NCBI RefSeq assembly: GCF_900046475.1
Contig: NZ_FCOU01000003.1
Location: forward strand, 221,713-285,712
Length of the DNA: 64,000 nucleotides
Source: Collinsella ihumii
Lineage (GTDB): Bacteria; Actinomycetota; Coriobacteriia; Coriobacteriales; Coriobacteriaceae
Direction: 5' to 3'
The position numbers and the translations under genes were made by a program. Below, in pieces: positions 8,766 through 21,844 of the stretch. Every line of letters starts with the position of its first letter. Within the stretch, counting starts at the first letter, position 1. The notes beneath the pieces are model-generated. The model saw nothing but the letters and a program-made list of their open reading frames with translations. It was not told where the DNA came from and ran no database searches.

Positions 8766-8794
8766 CGAACGTTTGTTTGCTTATATGGTAGAAT
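8766..8794 (+). promoter_or_regulatory. LexA-like box and promoter of the TerB operon
   Basis: CGAACGTTTGTTTG (8766-8779) fits the Gram-positive/actinobacterial SOS-box pattern CGAAC-N4-GTTYG. A -10 element TAGAAT (8789-8794) lies so that the box covers the -35 region and spacer, the position expected for repression. The helicase promoter at 19213-19242 has the same geometry. Confidence 0.55.
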
Positions 8795-8839
8795 GGAGTA
8801 CTACCGCAATCGACAGCAGGCAGACGAGAGGAGGGCGAG

Positions 8840-19242: not shown

Positions 19243-19381
19243 GACGCTGCCGAAAGGGCAACGCCCTCCACCGCCCCGTATCCTCGTGACACGTTGAGGG
19301 CAGAGGGATATGGATGGCGAGGCAGGGCGCGGGCATGCTGGGCGACGACAAGCGCCCCGAGGATGTGAGGAGGATGGATTC

Positions 19382-21844
19382 GTGAACGTCTTTGACCGCT
19401 ACGCGCCGTTCGTGCAGGACTTCATCTACGGGCACGGCTGGGAGAACCTGCGATCCATCCAGGTGGCGGCAGCGGACGCCATCTTCAACACCGACGAGAA
19501 CGTGCTGCTCACCGCCCAGACCGCCTCGGGAAAGACGGAGGCGGCGTTCTTCCCCATCCTCACGCTGTTTTGGGAGAATCCGCCCGCCTCGGTGGGCGCG
19601 CTCTACATCGGACCGCTCAAAGCCCTCATCAACGACCAGTTTTACCGGCTCAACGGCCTCTGCGAGGAAGCGGACATCCCCGTCTGGCATTGGCACGGCG
19701 ATGTCGCCTCGTCCCATAAGCGCAAGCTGCTCAAGCAGCCATCCGGAATCCTGCAGATCACACCGGAATCCCTCGAGGCGCTTCTGCTCCACAAGCATTC
19801 GGCGATCGGGAGGCTCTTCGGCGACCTGCGCTTCGTGGTGATCGACGAGGTCCACTCGCTTCTGCGCGGCGATCGCGGCGGGCAGACGCTCTGCCTGATC
19901 GAGCGCCTATCCCGCATGGCCGGCGTGAACCCCCGCCGTATCGGGCTGTCGGCGACCATCGGCGACCCGGAGCGAACCGGCGAGTTTTTGTCTTCGGGAA
20001 CCGGGCGCGGATGCATCATCCCGCGTTTCGAGGAGCCCCGGCGCACGTGGCGCCTTTCCATGGAGCATTTCTATATCACCGGCCCCCAGGCGACAGAGCG
20101 CGTCGCGCAGGCGACCGGCACCACGGTCACCGCAGGCACCGTCGAGGCCGAGGTGGTGAGCTGCGAGCGCATCGGGCCCGCGGCGCCCACGCTCGACGAG
20201 CTTTTGGAGCGCGCCGACAGCACCCCTGGCGACCGCGCGCTGGCGCTCGCAAAGGCCGGGCACCGGGCGTCGGGCTCCTCGGAGGACCCTACGCCCGCCG
20301 ACGAGCCCGAGGTCAGCATCCCTCCCGTGGCGGAAACCGAACTCATGACCGCAACCGACACCGCTCCGCGCGATGCGGACCCGGGACTCGGCTACATCTT
20401 CGAGCACACACGGGGCCGAAAATGCCTCGTGTTCGTCAACTCCCGTGAAGAGGCCGAGGCCGTCTGCACGGTGCTGCGCCAGTACTGCGAGGCGAACCGC
20501 GAACCCGACCGATTCCTCATCCACCATGGCAACCTGTCCGCATCCTACCGCGAGACCGCCGAAGAGCTCATGCGCGACGAGGAGCAGGCGCTCACCACGG
20601 TGACCACCGCCACGCTCGAGCTCGGCATCGATATCGGACGGCTCGAGCGCGCCTTCCAAATCGACGCCCCGTTCACCGTGTCGTCGTTCTTGCAGCGCAT
20701 GGGCCGCACCGGCCGGCGCGACCTCCCGCCCGAGATGCACTTCGTCATGCGCGAGGAGCAGCCCGAGCCGCGCGCCATGCTGCCCGAGACCATCCCCTGG
20801 AAGCTCCTGCAGGGCATCTCGCTCGTCCAGCTCTACCGAGAGGACAAGTGGGTGGAGCCCCCACGGCTCGACCGTCTCCCCTACAGCCTGCTCTACCACC
20901 AGGTCATGGCCACGCTCGCAAGCTGCGGCGAACTCACGCCGGCAGAGCTCGCCGGGCGCGTGCTCACGCTGTCTTACTTCCATCGCGTGAGCGCCGACGA
21001 CCTGCGCGTGCTGCTGCGCCATCTCATCGAAATCGATCACGTCGAACAGACCGAGGCGGGCGGGCTCATCGTGGGCATCGCCGGGGAACGCGTCACCAAC
21101 TCGTTCAAGTTCTACGCCGTGTTCCAGGAAAACGAGGAGTTCACGGTGCGCTCCGAATCTGCCGAGCTCGGAACCATCGTGAATCCGCCGCCTGCAGGCG
21201 AGCGCATCGCCATCGCCGGACACTGCTGGATCGTCGAGGAAGTCGACTGGAAGCGCCACCTTGTGTACTGCACGCAGGTCAAAGGACGCGTGCCCGCGTA
21301 TTTCGGCGATTGCCCGGGCGACATCGACACCCGCGTGCTCGAGCGCATGCGCCAAGTGCTGACCGAGCGCTGCGACTACCCCTACCTTATGGTGAATGCG
21401 CGCGCTCGCCTGCTCCAGGCTCGCCATGTCGCCGCCAACGCGCACCTGACCGAGCGACCGCTCATCAATCTGGGCGGCGACACGTGGGCGCTGCTTCCCT
21501 GGCTGGGCAGCTACGCGTTTTTGGCACTCGAGCGCCTGCTCAAGATCAAATGCGCCGGCGAGCTCGGCCTAAAGGGCCTCGACCCGTCCCGCCCCTACTT
21601 CATGCAGTTCCGCATGAAGGCGGATGAGGACACGTTCTACCAGGTGGTCGCCGCCGAGGCCGAGGCCGATTTCGACCCCATCGAGCTCGTGTACCCCGGA
21701 GAGGTGCCCTACTTCGACAAGTATGACGAGCTGCTGCCTGCAGAGCTCGTGCGCAAGGGGTTCGCCGAGGGCGTGCTGGATATCTCCGGCATGCGCGCAC
21801 GCGTCCTCGAATGGCGCGATCGCTGGGGCCGCGCCGTGCTTTAG
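19382..21844 (+). CDS. Lhr-like SF2 DEAD/DEAH helicase (Shango SngC-like)
   Basis: An 820-residue helicase. Motif I TAQTASGKTE (44-53), motif II DEVH (155-158), motif III SAT (190-192) and motif VI QRMGRTGRR (about 437-445) are all present. An unusually long acidic/proline-rich insert (about 260-330) lies between the two RecA domains, and a roughly 350-residue C-terminal region follows. GTG at 19382 was chosen because GTGAGGAGG lies in front of it. The family is the one that accompanies TerB and DUF2791-type ATPase genes in Shango loci; both are present 7.6 kb upstream. The LexA-like box suggests induction by DNA damage. Confidence 0.8.
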   Translation: MNVFDRYAPFVQDFIYGHGWENLRSIQVAAADAIFNTDENVLLTAQTASGKTEAAFFPILTLFWENPPASVGALYIGPLKALINDQFYRLNGLCEEADIPVWHWHGDVASSHKRKLLKQPSGILQITPESLEALLLHKHSAIGRLFGDLRFVVIDEVHSLLRGDRGGQTLCLIERLSRMAGVNPRRIGLSATIGDPERTGEFLSSGTGRGCIIPRFEEPRRTWRLSMEHFYITGPQATERVAQATGTTVTAGTVEAEVVSCERIGPAAPTLDELLERADSTPGDRALALAKAGHRASGSSEDPTPADEPEVSIPPVAETELMTATDTAPRDADPGLGYIFEHTRGRKCLVFVNSREEAEAVCTVLRQYCEANREPDRFLIHHGNLSASYRETAEELMRDEEQALTTVTTATLELGIDIGRLERAFQIDAPFTVSSFLQRMGRTGRRDLPPEMHFVMREEQPEPRAMLPETIPWKLLQGISLVQLYREDKWVEPPRLDRLPYSLLYHQVMATLASCGELTPAELAGRVLTLSYFHRVSADDLRVLLRHLIEIDHVEQTEAGGLIVGIAGERVTNSFKFYAVFQENEEFTVRSESAELGTIVNPPPAGERIAIAGHCWIVEEVDWKRHLVYCTQVKGRVPAYFGDCPGDIDTRVLERMRQVLTERCDYPYLMVNARARLLQARHVAANAHLTERPLINLGGDTWALLPWLGSYAFLALERLLKIKCAGELGLKGLDPSRPYFMQFRMKADEDTFYQVVAAEAEADFDPIELVYPGEVPYFDKYDELLPAELVRKGFAEGVLDISGMRARVLEWRDRWGRAVL

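Follow-up and report, generated by a model that had tools for sequence, protein, structure and literature searches.

A Shango-type defence system split into two halves, each with a predicted LexA operator, in a clade of Collinsella

Can a Shango system whose helicase gene lies 7.6 kb from its two partners be genuine, or does such a locus reflect a misjoined assembly? The question is raised by the 64,000-nucleotide stretch of a Collinsella genome analysed here (the window), which covers positions 221713 to 285712 of contig C3 in a 2.84 Mb assembly of 35 contigs. In PMC10250203, Shango is described as an experimentally demonstrated anti-phage system in Pseudomonas, and its three genes (Pseudomonas aeruginosa PA14, E. 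coli) as having been cloned as one unit from a defence hotspot. A preliminary description of the window had proposed such a system in two LexA-linked halves and left both answers standing, dispersed or misjoined.

Profile searches gave all three genes clear identities. The first, sngA (8840-10507, plus strand), encodes a TerB_N/TerB_C protein of 555 aa that matches the PADLOC SngA model at 9.6e-76 and passes the Pfam cut-offs for TerB_N (1.9e-28) and TerB_C (1.9e-16). The second, sngB (10504-11805, plus strand), encodes a BrxC/BrxD-type P-loop ATPase of 433 aa (PADLOC SngB, 6.4e-176; Pfam BrxC_BrxD, 518.7 bits), and an ATGA overlap joins it to sngA, as first described. The third, sngC (19382-21844, plus strand), encodes an SF2 helicase of 820 aa with Pfam DEAD and Helicase_C domains; its match to the PADLOC SngC model, 9e-274 and 908.6 bits, supports the proposal that it is the third Shango partner. 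For each protein the Shango model was the top PADLOC model by a wide margin, the second-best being BrxD for SngB (4e-43) and BrxHI for SngC (5.6e-120). The closest named relatives of this SngC are from Collinsella.

These similarities extend to two other groups of proteins. Like BREX proteins, SngB belongs to Pfam BrxC_BrxD and SngC matches BrxHI; however, the BREX models score far below the Shango models, and SngB reaches 148.5 bits on the NCBIfam BrxD model, below its cut-off of 350. The BREX core set consists of BrxC, PglX/BrxX and PglZ. A scan of nine window proteins gave no convincing match to further BREX components (the hydrogenase described below matched BrxP at 0.0044). Like Lhr-type helicases, SngC has its nearest fold in Mycobacterium Lhr 5v9x (Foldseek E 1e-20, from a weak model with a mean pLDDT of 67.2) and matches the same chain by sequence at 4.2e-26. 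Yet three NCBIfam helicase models, which we take to be the Lhr model (NF007284) and two Lhr-type models (NF010338 and TIGR04121), give it 82.6, 157.6 and 182.9 bits against cut-offs of 1496, 849 and 850. We therefore rejected a housekeeping Lhr identity, and the assignment of the helicase to Shango withstood this comparison. The AlphaFold model of SngA is good (pLDDT 85.4); a fold search with it returned 77 matches with E values of 10 or less, of which none reached 0.001. Its residues from about 481 to 555 align with winged-helix regulators at middling Z scores of 5.0-5.9, a hint that the C terminus is possibly a winged helix. By sequence against solved structures, SngB had no relative at E 0.01 and the best SngA match was at E 0.56. 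Judged by sequence, the three frames are a complete predicted Shango system (SngA, SngB, SngC) of a Collinsella species, and they share with described Shango a TerB-like protein, an ATPase and a DEAD/DEAH helicase (composition as given in PMC10250203).

The three genes are not contiguous: sngC starts 7576 bp past the end of sngB. The interval was said to hold a hydrogenase, an ABC operon, an adapter scar and an SLH protein, and all of these were found at 11966-19117. Directly after sngB comes a monomeric [FeFe] hydrogenase that lies outside the system (11966-13630, minus strand; TIGR04105, 608.4 bits, cut-off 450), followed by an ABC transporter substrate-binding protein (13760-14848, plus strand; Pfam NMT1, over cut-off), which is syntenic in relatives, and by permease and ABC ATPase domains (14963-16423, plus strand; Pfam BPD_transp_1 and ABC_tran) whose frame is broken by the scar. 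The scar itself is a 19-mer transposon-end adapter remnant, presumably Nextera (15776-15794, minus strand; 0.00 expected); immediately ahead of it, from 15761, stands a shortened copy in inverted orientation. An SLH-domain protein (16754-19117, minus strand; Pfam SLH, 76.8 bits) is, in this genome, an additional gene between the ATPase and sngC. Between the ABC ATPase and the SLH gene, at 16440-16610, inverted copies around CGACGTTGTGGA are visible by eye and resemble a small repeat element. Downstream of sngC are its usual neighbours, a spermidine-synthase-like protein and Elp3 (21916-24837, minus strand; Elp3 TIGR01211, 388.4 bits, over cut-off).

An adapter remnant within the 11.8-19.4 kb interval makes it conceivable that the contig was misjoined at the scar and that the separation is an assembly artefact, the more so as a 15-mer of the adapter has 38 matches scattered over this assembly, 12 pairs of them adjacent. 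Relatives speak strongly against this. We compared the window proteins with 80 stretches, which come from 63 genomes of the same family (G001-G063) and 13 genomes of the order, 76 relatives in all. The order SngA, SngB, hydrogenase (minus strand), binding protein, permease, ATPase, SngC is complete in seven other assemblies (G008, G013, G016, G021, G031, G034 and G037), whose stretches are free of the adapter; the hydrogenase at this place is 93-95% identical in six of them and 82% identical in G031. The same order runs to the contig end at the ATPase in G022; in G029 the genes from SngAB through the hydrogenase and ABC genes up to the ATPase are on one contig, with SngC and Elp3 on a second, and in G019 the hydrogenase alone separates SngB from SngC. 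Moreover, permease and ATPase form one stop-free open frame in 9/9 cassette-bearing relatives (L072, L077, L080, L084, L126, L127, L135, L138 and L141), so the scar sits inside one gene and joins nothing foreign. Synteny across the scar thus rules out a misjoin at the adapter: by comparison of sequences, the scar is an assembly artefact without a misjoin, an artefactual separation is scarcely credible, and of the two original alternatives the relatives decide for a genuinely dispersed system. The SLH gene, which is located away from the scar, had no match of at least 60 bits in any of the 80 stretches. A second palindromic scar of the same type is present at 611-644, and other genes of this assembly may be falsely interrupted. 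A Y-family polymerase frame on another contig of the genome (C12; L239, 2577-3662) has a LexA-type box at its start and ends inside another adapter remnant; the assembly has probably truncated it.

How widespread is the split? We built a tree from SngB and SngC of 63 family and 2 outgroup genomes (LG+G4 with a quick search; support by SH-aLRT only). In a clade of 20 genomes with support of 95, 18 have the halves at least 1.5 kb apart or on different contigs, counting G022, whose contig ends inside the cassette; the two unsplit members are G024 (39 bp) and G027, which is C. stercoris (136 bp). All 21 genomes of the aerofaciens-type clade have a gap of 118-119 bp between sngB and sngC; in G047, a family member outside both clades, it is 2.3 kb. 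Because some forks of the tree are open, and because G025 and G044 sit on long branches, we left insertion events uncounted. As far as sequence comparison goes, the split is a clade trait in Collinsella, and the earlier statement that known Shango loci are contiguous does not hold for this clade. Contiguous loci do exist in relatives, mostly with the same Elp3/spermidine-synthase neighbours, and the helicase that stands there beside the TerB/ATPase pair is the orthologous SngC.

In some species the halves lie much further apart. By contig-end arithmetic, and if the contigs are right, the distance is at least about 604 kb in G005 (C. intestinalis) and at least about 628 kb in G029 (C. phocaeensis); in G015 and G020 the halves are on separate contigs, possibly as near as about 11 kb in G020. 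Gap contents also vary, as seen from 10 proteins scanned from a selection of the listed frames. G001 has an ABC-3 permease with a glutamate-synthase-type protein, G039 a GH1 glycosidase plus one PTS and one ABC-3 permease, and G032 an AAA_14 ATPase. In G047 (L094, 1297-2907) a hydrogenase related to that of the window, and in G051 (L098, 12533-13918) a related permease and ATPase, are found upstream of sngA rather than in the sngB-sngC gap; the intervening gene set therefore keeps company with the locus on either side. The locus is loosened in a second lineage too, genus g18 of the order, where sngC is set apart from sngB and, in three loci (L112, L113, L120), about 3-5 kb also separate sngA from sngB.

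A split of this kind raises the matter of control. The LexA link proposed for both halves is borne out at the level of predicted operators. About 73 bp upstream of sngA is a LexA-type box, CGAACGTTTGTTTG (8766-8779, plus strand), a variant ending in GTTTG; a perfect box, GAACATATGTTC (19214-19225, plus strand), lies 168 bp upstream of the sngC start. The same motif occurs at lexA and recA, and the upstream LexA-type operator common to these two SOS genes is predicted for both halves. The perfect box GAACNNNNGTTC is expected 0.76 times by chance in 64 kb, so a single one is unsurprising; what makes it meaningful is where it lies and that it recurs in relatives. Two short similar transposase-like fragments in opposite orientation (5997-6287 and 8259-8594, by eye) bracket about 5.8-8.7 kb, and the right end of this bracket is about 50 bp before the sngA box, which places an insertion very near the sngA promoter.

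Across the whole genome the strict motif GAACRNNYGTTCG had 11 matches at 10 places, against 30 for a reversed control, and is thus not enriched by count. Two of these places precede lexA, and others precede recA and sngC, fall at the Y-family polymerase or are near ruvA; two further ones, near an M19 dipeptidase and an AlbA_2 protein, have no evident SOS role, and two of the 10 had no gene assignment. Four relatives have three boxes in the lexA promoter, the third of the same GTTTG type as that of sngA. The lexA promoter scan returned no box at the window genome's own locus and at that of G021, probably owing to strand orientation, and the own lexA box was confirmed by position; the recA scan found a box in 2 of 6 loci, both from plus-strand matches.

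We then counted boxes before sngC in the 65 genomes of the tree, outgroup included, with relatives treated as independent and gene starts estimated from tblastn. Of the genomes with at least 3 kb between the halves, 16/16 have a box no more than 450 bp from sngC (14 perfect, 2 variant), versus 7 of the 49 others, or 10 of 49 with G056, G061 and G063, which have a perfect match 411 bp from sngC and were not counted among the 7. With a threshold of 300 bp, the counts become 22/34 versus 1/31. Perfect boxes, those at sngC included, number 34 in 1,150,050 bp, which corresponds to 0.013 per 450 bp. A tree-aware test was not significant: with 5 independent pairs, the sign test gave a median p of 0.5 with variants and a p of 1 when only perfect boxes were taken. 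The test thus gave no support to a repeated linkage of box and split, and causation between the second operator and the split is hypothetical. Within Collinsella, the boxes may all derive from a single ancestor. There are also counter-cases: G024 belongs to the split clade, yet is contiguous and has no box, G027 has a box without a split, and G047 has its halves 2.3 kb apart without a box. In genus g18 (L111-L113, L115, L120, L121), where sngB and sngC are 1.0-3.9 kb apart, a one-mismatch box lies 36-43 bp before sngC in 6/6 loci, which hints, from sequence matches, at a second lineage with a box before a separated sngC.

The sngA box is found in 32/37 Coriobacteriaceae loci versus 0/22 loci outside this family, with the patterns used here and among the 59 of 80 named loci that had sngA and at least 200 bp upstream of it. 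It is also present in 3 of 13 further order-level loci (L114, L122, L123); among the 13, L112, L113 and L120 break off before sngA. With no sngA box among the 22 outside loci, SOS control as a general trait of Shango is unsupported.

Inheritance and selection bear on what the separated genes may be doing. At E 1e-30, and with the window's genome included, SngB is present in 62/65 family genomes and SngC in 64/65; the three SngB misses (G015, G026, G064) do have SngA, so SngC is kept together with at least one of SngA and SngB in 64/65. HsdR, a widespread defence gene used as a yardstick, is found in 27 of the same 65 genomes at E 1e-5, and SngB in 22/83 genomes outside the family. Identity to the window protein correlates with RpoB identity at rho 0.84 for SngB (n=38), 0.57 for SngC (n=39), 0.52 for SngA (n=38) and 0.87 for the hydrogenase (n=11), and within the genus at 0.79, 0.45, 0.40 and 0.77, respectively; RpoB is no unlinked marker, as its gene and sngA are about 31 kb apart in the window's genome. 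Elp3 and/or the spermidine-synthase-like gene was found downstream of sngC in 48/63 family loci, with one locus too short and 14 without them in 3.7-5.5 kb of room; for two of the 14 (L080, L126), both neighbours are visible in longer loci (L145, L146). Taken from these sequence comparisons, the Shango locus is near-universal in the family and most likely inherited in a largely vertical way. The window SngC is 68-73% identical to that of loci titled Clostridia, Ruminococcus, Butyrivibrio or Bacteroidales, and SngA in such loci is only 31-38% identical (alignments A1, A2); on these alignments the helicase appears unusually conserved or shared between phyla.

We estimated selection by Nei-Gojobori dN/dS in 11 pairs, some without all genes. 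Four split pairs gave 0.02-0.14 for SngB and 0.04-0.10 for SngC; SngC was at 0.12 in one dispersed pair and at 0.03-0.09 in six pairs with a gap below 1 kb. SngB and SngC are under purifying selection, in split and adjacent pairs alike. SngA ranges higher, 0.08-0.49, the top value coming from a 142-codon fragment.

These results weigh on two other readings of the locus. In split species SngC could have left the system and act alone, with SngAB a relic or working with another helicase, as the halves on different contigs in G005, G015, G020 and G029 would allow. We consider this improbable: SngC and SngA and/or SngB are retained jointly in nearly all family genomes, SngB and SngC are under similar purifying selection in split pairs, and a search of the window's genome at E 1e-30 found no second SngB or SngC, with one match each. 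The other reading is that the Coriobacteriaceae trio is a housekeeping, SOS-induced module for DNA repair or genome integrity and no longer mainly phage defence. Its near-universal presence compared with HsdR, the adjoining elp3 or its neighbour in most loci, the LexA boxes, and the purifying selection on SngB and SngC all fit such a module. SngA, however, evolves faster, as could be expected of an arms-race component; in Pseudomonas, experiment has shown Shango to be anti-phage (PMC10250203); and phage defence is compatible with SOS control. We regard such a mainly housekeeping role as possible but less likely than not.

The reading we prefer, and consider probable, is that of a vertically inherited, SOS-inducible Shango system with parts working in trans, which was opened in one Collinsella clade with both halves kept. 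An ancestral contiguous sngABC beside elp3 would have been inherited largely vertically. In one Collinsella clade, as the synteny suggests, unrelated metabolic genes would have entered between sngB and sngC, and in some species chromosome rearrangement would have parted the halves further. Each half has its own LexA-type operator by sequence, and LexA would repress both units. Damage or phage DNA would load RecA and lead to LexA cleavage, and both transcription units would be de-repressed together. Judging from their families, the SngB ATPase and the Lhr-like, BrxHI-like SngC helicase would then act in trans with SngA on damaged or invading DNA; we infer that SngC works with SngAB in this species. 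Since each half has its own operator, the split need not cost co-regulation, and retained co-regulation may explain how the split can be tolerated with purifying selection still acting on both halves. A broader proposal is that Shango has been absorbed into the core SOS regulon of the Coriobacteriaceae as a vertical, damage-inducible system acting in trans; a second LexA promoter, at sngC, would have left the genes free to disperse. We put this forward tentatively, as having a little less than an even chance.

Compared with described Shango, the Collinsella system differs in the 7.6 kb between sngAB and sngC, in a locus that is usually beside elp3 and near-universal in the family, and in the predicted LexA-type operators at both halves. 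With AbpAB and Hachiman it shares, judging from titles and abstracts, the notion of a damage-responsive defence; these are different proteins, however, and the link in Collinsella would be transcriptional, via the predicted LexA boxes. Titles and abstracts of the published literature on Shango reported no split or LexA-controlled Shango among the matches listed, and the available sections of PMC13060105 make no mention of Shango. The split Shango is thus a system of ordinary parts; what is unusual is its arrangement, its fixation and its likely control.

Tools that detect defence systems by gene adjacency could miss split systems or score them as partial. Should both halves prove SOS-induced, dispersed Shango would be a clean way to ask what Shango senses, by applying damage without phage. 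And if the preferred reading is true, a common gut genus would have a defence-type module that behaves like a set of core genes.
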